In this document: piece by piece, positions 1 to 14,576 of the stretch
How the letters are laid out: every line of letters starts with the position of its first letter
How positions within the stretch are numbered: the stretch's first letter is position 1
NCBI GenBank assembly: GCA_025526995.1
Contig: JAHLKG010000006.1
Span: 1,054,001-1,118,000 of the forward strand
Direction: 5' to 3'
Origin: Powellomyces hirtus
Taxonomy: Eukaryota; Chytridiomycota; Chytridiomycetes; Spizellomycetales; Powellomycetaceae
Length of the DNA: 64,000 bases
The notes under the pieces: model-generated
The model's input: the letters and a program-made list of their open reading frames with translations, nothing else
Database searches by the model: none
What the model was told of the DNA's origin: nothing
Made by a program: the position numbers and the translations under genes

Positions 1-697
1 CGCGAGCTTGTACACCACGGCAAATAACATCCCGGCCGCCGCAGCGAGCATGAGATACACACCGGCGGATCTGTACCTCGTGCTCTTATCGCTCTTCTCC
101 TGATTCTCCGGTGATAGTGGTCTAGAGTGGGGCAATGTCGCCATTTGGACTCCACCGTAGATGCTGAGTGCCGTAGCCGCCAAAACTGCAAGGTGGATGT
201 ACTTGAGGATACGTGTCGTAACGGCCTTTCGCTGTCCATGTTCGGGTTTCGTCGCTTCTGGGTCCACCCATCGGGTGAGAAGAGAGAGGACGCAGTTGAA
301 AAGGAAGAAATAGCCGGCGGTGAAGAACACCGAGTCGACTAGTAGGAGCGTTATTTTGTGATTAACTTCGGAAGCATTGGACATGGGGAGGTCTGCGACA
401 ACAATGCGCATTATAAATGCCGCCATTCGCACTACGCATATACACAACAACAAACAATATCAATATGAATCGAAAATGTGCACTCTCGCATCTCCACAAA
501 TAGCGAGTTTTATGCTTACAGAGAACGTAGGCAATAACCCATCCCAACGCCCATATTTTCGTTCGTCGCAGATTGAGCACAGTGACAGCGAACGCCGCAA
601 TCATGACGACCGTCAGCGACACGGCCGCTGCGATATTGATGCTCGGAAAGGATTCAGCTGGAGTGGACATTGGGAGCGGAGAAGGCTGCTGCTTCAA
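1..697 (-). CDS. Multi-pass membrane protein of unknown function, truncated at the window edge
   Basis: Two exons are visible: 697-520 and 392-1, joined across a 127-nt intron (donor GTAAGC, acceptor GTCGCAG). The reading frame runs off the left edge, so the C-terminus is missing. I chose the ATG at 697; an in-frame ATG ten codons on is an alternative. The visible ~190 residues hold at least four hydrophobic segments: one in exon 1 (residues ~20-42), one starting just after the splice (ITLLLVDSVFFTAGYFFLF), then AVLAATALSIYGGV and GVYLMLAAAAGMLFAVVY. Charged loops lie between them. The helix-loop pattern recalls uncharacterised fungal multi-pass families (RTA1-like or DUF7702-like), but no diagnostic motif is visible, so this is only a suggestion. 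A TATA-like box lies 100 bp upstream. Confidence 0.6.
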
Positions 698-1601: not shown

Positions 1602-4600
1602 TCATCGCCAAATACTGGCACCGCCTGGTACGTCGGCAGTCCACCCGCTTAGTCCCATTGTAGCTTTCAGTCCCTGAGAGGCAGGGGGTACCGAGAGCGT
1701 GGTGTCACCTTTGAGGCCTGCAATCGATGGTATAGCTGTGTTCCCCGAACCGCCGGATCCCGCAGAACTGGTGGACGCTGCGCCCGTTGTTCCGTTGAGG
1801 GTGCTTGTGCCGGTGCCATCGGTACTAGTGCCACCCCACAGGTCGCGGGCAGCGTTGAGCGCGCCGACGCTGCCGCGGCGGCGTGCTTTCATGACCCAGG
1901 TGTCAATCACAGACTTGAGAGCTAGATCCGGATTGTTGAGGGCGCGGTGCCAACTTTCGACTGGATGGTACATCAACGTGATGGGGGAACGCCACGAATT
2001 GTCAGCAATTAAGCGAGCGCGCAGAGGGGCATGGTCATAGTAGTATCCTGATGAGACAAGAGTTAGGCATGAGCACAGGGGGATCAACAATGTCACAGAG
2101 AAGCTTACCATCAGGGCCCCGAACAGGGATAGTCATGACCCTCCGCGTAAGAGCGCATATGAATTCCGCGGGAATGCTGCTAGGATGTATTCCATGGCTG
2201 GGCATAACAGCTGGTATGCCGTTCATCTCAGGGGCCAGGAAGTGCTGCGAAGGCGGAGCTCCTGTAACGTCTTGGCGGGAGTAACCTCTCGCTGCTGCTG
2301 GAATCGACTGTAGTAGATGGTGCTGTGCGAGTCCGTGAGGCTGCTGCTGCTGCTGATAAAGATGTTGTTGATGCGACTGCTGTTGAGTGTGTTGCTGTTG
2401 TCGATACAAGGCGGCTCCATGCAAACCGTAAGCGTTCGTGGCCGCAGGGGTGACTGTGTCAAAGGCTGCCGGTACTCCTTGGTGGGCTGCTCGTCCTGTC
2501 CTGCCGGCAGCTCCAGGATAAGTACTATAAGGTGTACTGCTAAACTGGTAGGATTCCAAGGACGGGTAATCTCCGGCCTCAACTTGCTGATTCCACCCGC
2601 CGGTTTCGACGCCGCGCTCACCCCAGGTCGAAACGCCTTGCGTGTTGAGCCCGCCGTACGTATCCGCTGCAATGGCAGCAGCGCCCGGGTATACAACAGA
2701 TCTGATGTTTCCCATCTGATCCGCGAACGGGTATGGGATATTCAGGCCACTGGTGGGCGTCGCACTCACTTTACCATCGGGTTCGACGGGCTCGGAATTT
2801 GGTTCTTCATCAAGGTAGGCAGTGTGCGTAGATTCTGCGAGAACCTCCGTAGGGCCTTCTGCTTCGCCGTCCTTGGTAGCCGTAGACGCCACATCTGCCG
2901 GCTCTCCTTCATCAACCTTGGCAGCTGTAGTGCCTTGATGCACAGAGAGTGGAATGGAGGCGGAGCCGCCGGCCGTCTTTGCGCTCTTGAGATCGCTGAT
3001 GGCACTCAGAATTCTGGCCAGATGCCCAATCTTCTCTATGCCAAAAGTATTGACCAAATCATCCTCTGTCAAAGCCTTGAGATCGTCGAATGCAACTTCC
3101 TCTTTGCTGAAGGCGTCCACGTATATGCCGAGGCCCTGCTGTCCTAGCCATTGAGCCAGATTCTCAGCAACTTGCGAGAAGTCGCTACTTGCGACCGGAT
3201 GGTTGGTGGCTTCCTCGTGGATCAAATGCATGAGACGTTTTCGAGGGCCGACCTTTGTGATGCCGAGTTGTACTAGATCCCATTCCCGAAGATATCGCAG
3301 GTCTGAGTATGTCACATCTTGAGCCTCAAAGTTCTCAAAGTGCTGCTCCAGCCCGAGCGAGGACAGAAAACGGAAAAGACGGCCGTCCTGGAGCGGCTCT
3401 GAGACTGAAGAAGTTCTGGAACTTGTGGTCGTGTCCTCTTCCATGCCATTCGAGTGAAGCTCGATGTTTCCGAATTGAACTGATGTCGCCTTGGGTGATG
3501 GGGAGGAATGGGTGGTGCTAATTGGTTCCGTATGAGCTGCAAAGTCATCCGGCGCGCTTTTGTTGTTTCCGCGGCTTTCTGGCGAGATGGCAGCGGCTGT
3601 CTCCTGATTTCGTACACGATTGCTAGTGCCTCTTCTGGCAGCCCCTGGACTAATGACAGGCTGCTGTGGCGATGAAAACGCTTGTGGAGATTGAGCTGCC
3701 GTGACTGATGAGGATGATAGTGCAGTAATGCTTGTTACTGAGCCGATGTCAGACTCCTTTCGTTTTCGAGCGCCGCCTCGGGTTCCTCGTCTCCTGAGTC
3801 GTGGGGTTCCGACGTACTCAAAATTGTTATTGCCATCATCGTCAGGATCGATCTCAAGACCGGAATCATCATATTCGCGCGGCGTGTAGGGCGGTGGGGG
3901 TTCTTCCATGTGCTTCTGATGATGTGCTTCGTCATCCGTCTCCGCGACCACGGACTTGTCAGCTTCCACCTCGTGCGGCTGGTTCGACACTTCTCTTTCC
4001 ATGGTTGGCCCGGCGGATCTGCTAGCCCTTTCCCGAGCAATTCTGTCGGCCTCGGCTCGAGCTTTCATGCCACGGTCTCGTTCCTTGAGGAACAGCTCAA
4101 TTTGATGTCGTTTTTTGTCCATAGCTCTCGCCGCATCCTCAATCTCTCGCGCGAGGACTCGAGTAGCTACATCAATTTCCCGGAAACCGGCCTGACCTCC
4201 AAGGTATTCTTTCTGCACCAAGGCGGCTCGGCAGATGGCGATGATTCGATTGTACACAAGTTCATGGCTGATTGAGATGCTGATATCCGATGGTTCGTTT
4301 GTGTCTGGCACGACAGAGAGTACATCCAATGGCGGGCGGTTCCGGATGAGAGCCTGAACGTTTTGCACAATCTGATTTCGGATTGTCGCTGGCAGGATAT
4401 AAGGAGTGTCTGGCGGATACATGCTAGGAAGAGATGCCAGAAAGTCTTCGAAATCAGATGACGTGTCAGGGAGAGAGGGACTCCCGACCCCGAGCTGAGA
4501 TTCCTCCGGACTCTTTTGTGAACTCTCACTTCCATTCGTCTCATCTTTGAGCGGAGATACACTTTGATGTTGTTTTTCGTGACCTTCATGCTCCAGGTCG

Positions 4601-6621
4601 TCGTCCTCATCCCCATCTGCAGCCTCCTCGTGCGGAGCCGCAACCTCTTCCTCCTTTGAAATGCGGCCATTCCCGTCTTCTTTCAAAGCAACCTTGATAA
4701 ATTCGTTCAACTTGCTTTTCCATAGATGCTGTTCTTCATTTTTGGCCACACGAGCCTCCATCTCGAGAACTATTTCCTCAGTCTCCACGATGACTTCCTC
4801 CATTCGGCTGCGTCGCGCCTGTTCCAGCAGCTTCCGCAGTTTGGATAGCTTTTCGGTCGTTGGAATGTTTCCCGTTTGATTTAAGACTTGCGAGATCTGA
4901 CCTCGTAGTCTTTTCGCCATCTTTACCCGCCTTTCTTCCTTATTTCTTTCGTATTCTTCCCGCCTCTGCTGCCGTACAGCTTGGATATCCTCAACGTAAT
5001 GGTCCAAAAACGTTGACCACTCACCCAAACCCAAGTTGTTTTCAGCCTAGCGCGAGGGAACAATGATTCATCAGTTTCCGGCAATCTTTTCTTAGATATG
5101 ACACTGCCTCTTACTCGAACGCGGAAGGAGTAATGTCCGGGAGGAAGAACATCCGTCCACCACTCTGTACTCCACCCAAGGTATATCCTGACCCAGTCGC
5201 TAGTAACATTCGGGATATTAGTCATGAGGCGCACCCGTCAAGGGCTGACACATTCATCCAATCCTACCTCGCTTCTGGTCCGATGCTTCGTTGCTTCACA
5301 TGTAGCTCATAACGAGAGATTTGCAATTCTTCTGCAGATGCGCAGCTCCAGCTCAACATCACTCTTGAGTGGCCCCGTTTGGGATCGTTAAGAATGGTAT
5401 CGATAACCCGCGGCATGGTGCACTGATGAGGAAACCCTCCGGTGAGGCGCCGATGGTCATTCGGATGTACAGTGCGCGTTGGTTGCGGAACTGCACGAGA
5501 AGAGCCCGATGAGTTTAACAGAAAAAGCTGCAGGCAAGAGCTTGCATCCTACCAGATGAATGATTGTCTCGTTTAATGACTGGCCGTTGTCCTTCTTGAT
5601 CAGCGTCTTTTGAAGATTTGGGCAGCGTCGCAAGGAACGCGTTGTGATCCATCATTTGGATGTACCGACGCCTCAGTTCGGTATCGGATAAGACCTGGTG
5701 CGCAGTTTGCAGCTCCCGGAATCGTTCTGCATTGAAGGCAACAGGACGAGGTTATATGCGAAGCTTCGCAATGGATAATGCCTGCGCAGTAAAAACTTAC
5801 TGTAGTCTTCTTCGGTCGGTGCTCGAGGAAGTTTGTCCGGATGCATGCGTATGGCAAGAACTTTGTACCTCTTTCGGACGGAATCCATCAGGGCCAGATG
5901 ACCTTTGTCGGCCATGCTATCCAAATCTTTTGATCGTTTCTCCAACGCAGTGACTTTCTCTCGCGCATCTGCCACTTCCCTAAACGCAAGTCCACAAAGA
6001 AGTTGAAAAGTGGTCTCATTTCGTATCGGGCCAGTGTGAAAGTAACGACCGGTGTCAGATACTAGCGTGCCCTCATTCTTGATGACCTCCACTACCCGGC
6101 AAATGTCCTGATGAATGCAAAACTAAGCATTTCAACCCCTTTTAGTGAAGTAGTGAAATGAACATGCGGCTCACCTTCGGACCGGATACTGAAGCCAAAG
6201 ATGCCTGAGCTTCTACGAACGTCAGAACATTGGTACTCGTCACGGTCAGTCCACCACTGACAGGAAAACCGCGTTTTCGGGCAGCGCGTTCAGCATTCTT
6301 CTTTTCCTTCTTGAGCGCTTGACGGGTTTTATCATCCAGCTTCTTTTCATCACGTTTCCGTTCCTGTGCAAATTCTTTGCGAGCCTGTTCAACCTTTCCT
6401 AGAGCTTCTTCTGCTTCCGTAAGCTCCTCTCTACACTTTACAATCTCTTCTGCAAGTCCGATTTGCTCTTGAAAAACGCCGACAAGTGTCCGCGCATTGT
6501 CGTCATTTTCAAGATTCAGTACTTGGAAGAAGTGTGGAAGTGGTCCTATGGACTTTTTTGGCGGTTCAGGTGTCGTCAGTGGCTGCTTGTTCTCTGATGG
6601 CGGAGAGGAAGCGACTGACAT
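1602..6621 (-). CDS. J-domain / FN3 / double SAM / U-box protein (putative chaperone-linked E3 ubiquitin ligase)
   Basis: Seven exons (6621-6175, 6107-5801, 5726-5553, 5490-5268, 5199-5115, 5046-2109, 2047-1602) total 4,620 nt, giving 1,539 residues. In order: coiled coil (~50-115); a J-like domain (~220-275) with intact HPD in YKVLAIRMHPDKL and a helix IV completed across intron 2; an FN3 domain (~335-425) completed across introns 4 and 5 (LPPGHYSFRVR joined to AENNLGLGEWS); a charged coiled coil; SAM domains at ~965-1022 and ~1037-1093; a Gln/His-rich stretch; a U-box (~1371-1445, FICALTRRVMTIP...PDGYYYD...SPIT...NPDLALKSVIDTW) completed across intron 6; and a Ser/Gly/Thr-rich tail. J-domains stimulate Hsp70, U-boxes recruit ubiquitin-loaded E2s, and SAM domains self-associate. 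The natural inference is ubiquitination of Hsp70 clients, as CHIP does with TPR plus U-box. The splice inside the FN3 fold is what shows this is one gene and not two. Confidence 0.85.
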
Positions 6622-7370: not shown

Positions 7371-10072
7371 ATGGGTCTCAGGAACAGATCAGGCGCTTAC
7401 GAGCAGCACGGCGATGGCGATCGTGCGCAGCTTCTGCCGCCGCATAAAAGTAACGCTCAAGTCAAGGGAACCTGGCGGCAGTTTGCCTGGCTGGCAGCCT
7501 CCCTGTTCATCCTGGTGGCGGTGGCCTTGTACTGGTCCCGCAGCCGTCATGTTGCTACGTATGTTGTGATGCTAGCTAATGATCGAAGAGTTGTCCTTGA
7601 AGGCTCAATGCGTGATTAATATGTCAACCAGAGAATCATATTATATCGTGCACAATGCGGTTGTCCATACGGTTGACCTAGACCGGCCCTCTGCGGAAGC
7701 GTTCGTGGTCCGCAACGGACATTTCGTAGCCGTCGGTGATAAGAAGATTCTCTTTGAAGCTCACCCATTGGCGGAGAAACTAGATCTGGATGGGAAGACT
7801 GTAGTCCCGGGTCTCATCGACTCACACGGCGTATGTGCATTGCTCACTGTCAGTGCCTTCTCTCCGCGTGATGCCCTCATTTAAAAACGTCCCGCACAGC
7901 ATCTTATAGAACAAGGTCTCGCTTTCTTGCAGGCGGACGTCGGCGGGTCGCAAAACCTCGCAGAGGTCCGTGGCTCACTCGTACGGTATCTCGACGCACG
8001 CCCCGATATCGAAAAGGAGCACGGTTGGGTTATTGGCAAGGGATGGGATCAGTCCAAGTGGGCAGAGACAAATTACGGATTCCCCAATGCAACCGACCTC
8101 GACCAGCATCCTCGCTTGTCCAAAGTCCCGATCTGTCTTTACCGAAACGATTATCACGCGTATTGGCTCAACACAAGAGCATTGGACATCGTTGCGTCGC
8201 ACATACCGCCGCCCGATCAGAAGATGGAAGGCGGAGAAGTTGTGCGAGACGCCAGCGGGCGCCTCATGGGGATTTTTTTGGACAGAGCGATGGAAATGAT
8301 TGACCTGGCCCTACCTCAACCAACCGAAACTATGTTGAAGGACGCGTTACACGCTGTTACATCGCGAATGCTGCAACATGGATTGACCGGACTCCATGAT
8401 GCCGGCGTGTCCGCCTGGCAGATGGGCATCTTGCGAAAGTATAGTCAACCGAATTGACATGTTCTGCGCTTCTGAGGTGTCCTTACGCATAGTTTGTTGG
8501 GTAGAGCGGTTGACGAAGGCAGGATGCCGATCAGGAACTGTAAGTGACATCACAGAAGGCGACAACATGCTTCCCGGACTAACCACACTGCAGATGCTAT
8601 GGTCAGATGCCAAGATCCGGAAAAGTATTGCGGTGATACCTTCACCAAAGGCGACTATGGCGGGAGACTCACAGTTGGTTCAGTCAAACTTTTCCTGGAT
8701 GGTGCTGTTGGCTCTTGGGGCGCCGCCCTGATTGACGTAAGTTCGATTGTCGATGCTTGACCATAGGCGAGAGCAATGTGGAAGGAAATGCTCAATTCTC
8801 ATCTCACCTTTTAGCCGTACTCTGGTGGGTTCGTCGTGTTTGTGACTAAACACGAAGCCCCGACTGAAAGATAGATTCGCAGATGATGTGAGCAAATCCG
8901 GATTCGTGCGAATTCCTACTGAAAGAATCAATGACTTGATTACAGAGGTAAGTGGTGCATCTGGTCCATTACGAATCCACCGGTCGGAACCGCATCATTA
9001 ACAACCATTGCATCAGTGGGCACAAAATGTACGTGACAGATAATCTTCGCGTTGTTAGCAAAATCTGATACTCGGCAATGTGGGCAGGGTTTCCAAGTGA
9101 ATATTCACAGCATAGGGGATCTCACCAACAAGCTTGCTTTAGACGGGTTCGAAACCTGTTTCAGGAGGCTAGGTCTCAACGGCACGGCAGCTTACAACAG
9201 AAGAATGAGAATCGAACACGCCCAGATCATCGTATGGACCCGCTTTCGTCTTCTCTATTGTTGATACAATCATTCATCTGACAGTATCTAGCAACAAGAG
9301 GACATACCCCGCTTTGCATCATTGGGCGTTACGCCTTCCATGCAGCCAACTCATGGTAGGTCTTCAAAGGTCTGCGCGCCATCTGTAAACACGTGTTTAA
9401 ATCACAACAAGCAACCAGCGACATGGCATACGTGGAGAAGAGATTGGGGCATCAGCGCATCCGCGGTGCTTACGCATGGCGATCACTGAAGAATGCAGGG
9501 TACGATTATGTTGCGATTAAATTTTGATTTCCTCGTCAATCACTCACGAGAGAACCCTTCTATTACAGTGTGCAGCATCTTGCGCTTGGTTCCGACTTTC
9601 CAATTGAAGGCGTGAACCCGCTTTTGGGAATCCATGCTGCCGTCACCCGGTTGGACGAAAGTGGCGCTTCAGTACGTGGTCGTAATATCAATGCCTTGAG
9701 GTGCCATTGTCATTTTAACCTGATATTATTGATGTAGCCGCACGGACCAGGCGGATGGTATCCTTCCGAGCGCTTAACTCCCGAAGAAGCTCTGCGAGGC
9801 TTCACACTTGATGCTGCTTGGGCTGCGTTCCAAGAACATGAGGTAAGTGTGTCTCTATATATTAGGCCCTATTGACCTTTTCCGATGTGACCATGCTGCT
9901 GCTGACTGTGCCCATGCGACACGTCTCCACGCAGCTCGGGTCTATCACCGCGGGCAAGAAAGCGGACTTTGCAGTCTTTGACAGAAACTTCCTCGCGGAG
10001 CCGCAAGATATCCTTAAAGCTAATTGCGTCGCCACCGTCGTGGATGGAGTTGTGGCGTATGGTCATCTTTGA
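7371..10072 (+). CDS. Membrane-anchored amidohydrolase (amidohydrolase family 3, YtcJ-like)
   Basis: Fourteen exons: 7371-7558, 7632-7830, 7900-8438, 8493-8539, 8594-8736, 8815-8824, 8883-8947, 9017-9028, 9088-9231, 9292-9355, 9412-9499, 9569-9671, 9738-9842, 9935-10072. They total 1,845 nt, or 614 residues. Residues 37-55 form one transmembrane helix after a short charged N-terminus, so the catalytic part is probably lumenal or extracellular. Metal-site signatures are in order: HxH in GLIDSHGHL (~128-130), KLFLDGAVGSWGAAL, VNIHSIGD, RIEHAQII, TPSMQPTH, ALGSDFPIE, and the C-terminal ITAGKKADFAVFD that closes the composite beta-sandwich. This family hydrolyses C-N or similar bonds; the substrate here cannot be told from sequence. 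Exons 6 and 8 are only 10 and 12 nt, and both are needed to keep conserved motifs in frame. The donor of intron 3 (AA/GTATAG) is the least certain junction. Confidence 0.88.
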
Positions 10073-14504: not shown

Positions 14505-14576
14505 TGAAGCCTACGGGATTTGAACACGTAACCTTCCGATCTGGAGTCGGACGCGCTGCCGTTGCGCCAAGGCTTC
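14505..14576 (-). tRNA. tRNA-Trp (anticodon CCA)
   Basis: The minus strand folds into a complete 72-nt cloverleaf. The 7-bp acceptor stem is GAAGCCT/AGGCTTC with discriminator A. The D-arm is GCGCAACGGCAGCGC. The anticodon stem is TCCGA/TCGGA with loop CTCCAGA, giving anticodon CCA (Trp). The T-loop is GTTCAAATC. There is no intron. It sits 124 bp upstream of the K+ channel gene start and next to a foldback element. Confidence 0.96.

Follow-up and report, generated by a model that had tools for sequence, protein, structure and literature searches.

The window analysed here, a stretch of 64,000 nucleotides at positions 1054001-1118000 of contig C6 of the chytrid Powellomyces hirtus (Spizellomycetales, Powellomycetaceae), carries on its minus strand a gene of seven exons (6621-6175, 6107-5801, 5726-5553, 5490-5268, 5199-5115, 5046-2109 and 2047-1602), which sum to 4,620 nt, or 1,539 codons and a stop. 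All six introns run from GT to AG and are 61-74 nt long. The exons had been picked out by eye from the letters of the DNA, and that original prediction was exactly right, in that the joined exons reproduce, letter for letter, the public protein DFJ77DRAFT_321866, a hypothetical protein of P. hirtus. From the N- to the C-terminus the encoded chain incorporates; 1) a J-domain that is apparently split; 2) a fibronectin type III (FN3)-like domain; 3) a conserved region without a Pfam match; 4) two SAM domains; 5) a variable linker followed by a divergent U-box; and, 6) a conserved C-terminal tail (Table 1). We found no second copy in the P. hirtus genome, where all seven protein matches are pieces of this same gene.

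The window also holds part of a membrane-type protein at 4-459 (minus strand; DUF7702 match of 30.9 bits, cut-off 27), a frame for part of an amidohydrolase at 7888-8454 (plus strand; Amidohydro_3, 57 bits) and a tRNA gene at 14505-14576 (minus strand; Rfam RF00005, 60.6 bits), the sole Rfam match in the window above the gathering score.

Table 1. Features of the gene, with positions in the window and the basis for each.
Feature	Positions	Strand	Basis
Whole coding region, 7 exons, 1,539 aa	1602..6621	-	Exon joining; identical public protein
J-domain helix I-like motif HFFQVLNLENDD, residues 30-41, far upstream of the HPD helix	6499..6534	-	AF2 helix 30-34; Pfam gain 8.1 bits; best of 210 windows
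J-domain core, residues 219-281 (end of helix II, HPD, helices III-IV), exons 2 and 3	5638..5900	-	Pfam DnaJ, 39.8 bits
FN3-like domain, residues 327-432, exons 4, 5 and 6	4987..5440	-	Predicted fold; PDB-sequence profile match
Intron 5, 68 nt, CTGAT inside; junction queried in the original prediction	5047..5114	-	Splice-site model
Conserved region without Pfam match, residues 609-735	4078..4458	-	Pfam; identity comparison
SAM domain 1, residues 966-1030	3193..3387	-	Pfam; Caskin-1, E 3.1e-15
SAM domain 2, residues 1036-1105	2968..3177	-	Pfam; ANKS1B tandem, E 1.3e-15; Caskin-1, E 4.2e-13
Q-/P-rich variable linker, residues 1106-1368	2179..2967	-	9-30% identity to 7 other proteins
Divergent U-box, residues 1370-1446, intron 2108-2048 within	1884..2175	-	Pfam, 29.3 bits; poor AF2 model
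Conserved C-terminal tail, residues 1512-1539, ending GLKATMGLSGWTADVPGGASIWR	1605..1688	-	Identity comparison

Relatives and unity of the chain

Protein searches returned eight proteins in total, from six genera and two orders. Besides P. hirtus, the Powellomycetaceae are represented by Geranomyces michiganensis, G. variabilis, Thoreauomyces humboldtii and Fimicolochytrium jonesii; the remaining members are from Gaertneriomyces sp. JEL0708 (Spizellomycetaceae) and, in another order, the Rhizophlyctidales, from Rhizophlyctis rosea, which contributes two proteins. The eight are 1,504-1,675 aa long, the other seven with 30-62% identity to the P. hirtus protein, and the relatives are named in the databases as hypothetical, uncharacterized or 'J domain-containing', with these Pfam labels already attached.

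It had been proposed that the chain continues across a 68-nt intron with a CTGAT motif. Such an intron is present at 5114-5047, and the peptide that spans it (YSFRVR/AENNLG in P. hirtus) is unbroken in the identical public model and in the seven further proteins; the predicted FN3 fold also runs across the junction. All eight public proteins are themselves gene predictions, and a false join is unlikely because proteins only 30-62% identical to that of P. hirtus would hardly hold it in register. The proposed order of J-domain, FN3, SAM, SAM and U-box is backed by the same set of proteins, and sequence comparison thus supports the assignment of all these parts to one gene. Separately, we note that keeping intron 5 would put the sequence beyond it out of frame and cut the protein short right after FN3, giving a possible short J-FN3 isoform.

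An apparently split J-domain

The intact HPD motif of the J-domain lies at residues 238-240 (positions 5843-5835, minus strand) and is found once in each of the eight proteins, all of which score above the curated Pfam DnaJ cut-off of 27.8 bits (35.7-44.8 bits). In the whole P. hirtus protein the match (39.8 bits) covers profile positions 14-62 of 63, and since it starts only at position 14, helix I is not adjacent to helix II. The highest-ranked of five AF2 models of the N-terminal region (mean pLDDT 76.4, against 72.5 to 61.3 for the others; pTM 0.48) places a helix at residues 30-34 (HFFQV) in a block with a pLDDT of 91, followed by a helix at 41-94, further helices, and a helix of 58 residues (180-237) that runs into the HPD; helices III (248-265) and IV (267-276) come after it. 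In structure searches with this model the displayed matches were of FN3 type.

When residues 30-41 were joined in silico to the J-domain core, the Pfam DnaJ score of the P. hirtus protein rose from 47.5 to 55.6 bits and the match widened to positions 2-62, while four hand-picked control stretches gave 47.0-49.1 bits. Joining raised the score in all three proteins so treated, by 8.1 bits in P. hirtus, by 6.6 in Gaertneriomyces (46.7 to 53.3 bits) and by 1.5 in one Rhizophlyctis protein (45.4 to 46.9 bits). Scored against a profile built on six canonical J-domains of this genome, the motif was the best among all 190-217 windows in six of the eight proteins; of the two Rhizophlyctis proteins, one had it fourth among 232 windows and the other below the first four of 241. 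When helix I alone was used as a position matrix, the motif ranked first upstream of the HPD in seven of the eight proteins, with a better place elsewhere in P0007, and over whole proteins it was beaten in two of eight; shuffles did as well in 4-29 of 500 trials in six proteins and in 127 of 500 in P0008. Support for a split J-domain is thereby good in six of the eight proteins and weak in both from Rhizophlyctis. In the Spizellomycetales proteins a predicted helical insertion, about 180 residues long, most likely separates helix I of the J-domain from helix II.

The FN3-like domain and the SAM pair

Run on the whole protein, Pfam places DnaJ, the two SAM domains and the U-box above their cut-offs and leaves FN3 uncalled. 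The fn3 family is listed in one of the eight proteins (14.2 bits, below the cut-off of 25), and an Fn3-like phage-protein family is sub-threshold in two of them (14.3 and 14.9 bits, cut-off 27). The predicted structure, however, contains the FN3 beta-sandwich, structure searches give FN3-type matches, and a profile of this region matches FNDC3A among PDB sequences (E 3.4e-4), so that the FN3 domain originally predicted is upheld by fold and profile, although it misses the Pfam cut-off. Further along the chain, residues 609-735 are 62-72% identical in the four other Powellomycetaceae proteins and 34-38% in the remaining three.

The SAM profile exceeds its curated cut-off in all eight proteins, with two stretches in seven of them; in P. 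hirtus SAM_1 scores 96.1 bits over two stretches and SAM_2 71.5 bits. The best PDB-sequence matches are tandem SAMs, with several polymer-forming SAMs also present, and the top matches are Caskin-1 for the first domain and ANKS1B (AIDA-1) for the second. Both are animal proteins and are not known to carry a J-domain or a U-box. A G-x-x-[KR] pattern, the basic pattern of a tail surface, occurs in the first SAM domain in all eight rows of the alignment and in the second in only two of seven. The tandem SAM of Caskin-1 is described as building helical fibrils (PMC4994250). From the matches to tandem and polymer-forming SAMs, polymerisation of the chytrid protein is plausible, although the ANKS1B match of the second domain and the scarcity of the basic pattern in it count against this.

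The U-box, its linker and the C-terminal tail

The Pfam U-box profile scores 29.3 bits in P. hirtus (cut-off 21.4) and lies above the cut-off in seven of the eight proteins (28.2-32.8 bits). A profile of the region set against PDB sequences returns U-box proteins on top, namely LubX (E 2.9e-8, two stretches), followed by plant PUB12 (0.001), UBE4B (0.0095) and CHIP (0.014). Identity within the U-box is 60-78% to the four other Powellomycetaceae proteins and 40% to Rhizophlyctis; in contrast, the linker before it has 16-30% identity to those four Powellomycetaceae proteins. The 16 residues directly after the U-box have 94-100% identity in the Powellomycetaceae. L1378, which aligns with an isoleucine of this genome's own CHIP, and P1413 are invariant in all seven U-box proteins, at or close to the E2-contact sites of other U-boxes. 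Loop 2, after the central helix, where that CHIP has an arginine, can be aligned with it in two ways, one from MAFFT and the other from spacing, and may or may not keep this residue. The predicted U-box is borne out by Pfam in seven of eight proteins, but the AlphaFold model, built from seven sequences, is poor (pLDDT 53.4), its structure search gave no usable match, and the domain is missing in the Gaertneriomyces protein.

With Pfam hits taken up to E 10, no U-box is listed for the protein of Gaertneriomyces sp. JEL0708, although this orthologue retains the J-domain, the FN3 region, one SAM domain and the C-terminal tail. This may be a true loss of the U-box or an exon overlooked in the annotation; since each of the two orders has the U-box, a single loss (or an overlooked exon) explains the pattern more simply than a pair of gains. 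The tail itself is 86-93% identical in the four other Powellomycetaceae proteins, 46% in Gaertneriomyces and 36-39% in Rhizophlyctis. Its ending, GLKATMGLSGWTADVPGGASIWR, is identical in all five Powellomycetaceae proteins and lies outside every Pfam match, and the C-terminal GWMGDVDGIWR of Gaertneriomyces resembles GWTADVPGGASIWR of the other proteins. The Powellomycetaceae ending may be a docking peptide.

Other U-box loci in the genome

A U-box search of the P. hirtus genome gave three further loci. One, at 655142-658303 of contig C9, has on one strand and in order TPR_1 (44.4 bits), CHIP_TPR_N (33.8 bits, cut-off 26.7) and a U-box (69.1 bits), and by these separate pieces, taken with their exons unjoined and in the P. 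hirtus genome only, we recognise a separate CHIP gene beside the gene described here. The second is Ufd2 (core 84.1 bits), and the third yielded no identity from the one frame tried. In the J-SAM-U-box protein itself Pfam detects neither a TPR nor a WD40 family at E up to 10.

Discussion

The component domains of this protein are known and the pairing of SAM with U-box has precedents, whereas the combination of a J-domain, a SAM pair and a U-box is undescribed in the literature searched. WDSUB1 is composed of WD40, SAM and U-box, and a protein of the choanoflagellate Monosiga has two SAM domains and a WDSUB1-like U-box without WD40, so that SAM and U-box share one protein there as they do here (PMC3087547). 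Their description, unlike that of the chytrid protein, names no J-domain or FN3. No described J plus U-box protein was found in the open-licence PMC literature, nor was a class C J-domain protein with a SAM pair and a U-box, and the suggestion that no protein of this order had been described agrees with that search. With class C J-domain proteins the chytrid protein shares an HPD-containing J-domain within a multidomain chain, but its helix I motif lies far from helix II. Auxilin has a short insertion between these two helices. The other obvious comparison is CHIP (STUB1), which docks Hsp70 by its TPR and carries a U-box; the chytrid protein would likewise couple Hsp70 to a U-box E3, although CHIP has a TPR instead of a J-domain, lacks SAM and FN3, and is encoded by a separate gene in P. 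hirtus.

The most likely role of the protein is that of a self-assembling scaffold which docks Hsp70 and bears a U-box arm of putative ligase activity. In the proposed mechanism the J-domain, with its intact HPD, would dock ATP-bound Hsp70, and a long helical excursion would return helix I to helix II and set the J-domain atop a helical stalk. The SAM pair would join molecules head to tail, FN3 and region 609-735 may bind partners or clients, and the U-box, on its flexible Q-/P-rich tether, would recruit an E2 and ubiquitinate Hsp70-held clients or the scaffold itself. That one chytrid gene thus provides a co-chaperone scaffold in which the J-domain docks Hsp70, the SAM domains assemble and the U-box ubiquitinates clients is a reading to which we give an even chance. 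The original suggestion, that a single molecule could cover the work shared by Hsp70/Hsp40 and CHIP, is tempered by the low-confidence U-box model, by the one protein of eight without that domain and by the separate CHIP gene.

Somewhat less probable, yet a serious contender, is that the protein is a structural scaffold of J-domain and SAM domains which draws Hsp70 to an assembled array, its U-box being a non-catalytic and dispensable protein-binding fold that ubiquitinates nothing. The E3 arm would be dispensable in Gaertneriomyces, because its protein keeps the J-domain, FN3 region, one SAM and tail without a U-box, and the modest U-box scores (28.2-32.8 bits), the poor model and a divergent loop 2 point the same way. 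However, the U-box is well conserved wherever it is present, L1378 and P1413 do not vary in any of the seven, and the Gaertneriomyces protein, a protein prediction only, may merely be mis-annotated. More doubtful is the narrower proposal of a chytrid-specific, self-polymerising E3 ligase whose J-domain, interrupted by a helical stalk some 180 residues long, would recruit Hsp70 directly. Docking of the chaperone, ubiquitination of clients and assembly would then all sit in a single chain that acts beside CHIP rather than replacing it, and the two may divide the labour.

Two further alternatives are very improbable. A false fusion of adjacent J-FN3 and SAM-SAM-U-box genes would fit with the parts being joined within the window by splice signals only, and with intron 5 retention shifting the frame and ending the protein soon after FN3, but eight public gene predictions, drawn from two orders and six genera, run through the junction without a break, and it is crossed by the FN3 fold as predicted. 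No more credible is the idea that the lineage lost CHIP and that the fusion, whose Hsp70 docking and U-box resemble the logic of CHIP, took over, since contig C9 of the P. hirtus genome carries a CHIP gene. Loss of CHIP in P. hirtus is contradicted by the ordered TPR_1, CHIP_TPR_N and U-box pieces there.

The choice between refolding and degradation of Hsp70 clients is made by separate proteins, the J-proteins and CHIP. A natural J/U-box fusion would offer a way to learn whether coupling both arms tips clients towards degradation, and whether SAM assembly tunes this. If real, the split J-domain would mean that adjacency of helices I and II in the sequence is not required, and such a domain would be under-called by standard searches, as here, where the Pfam match begins at position 14.
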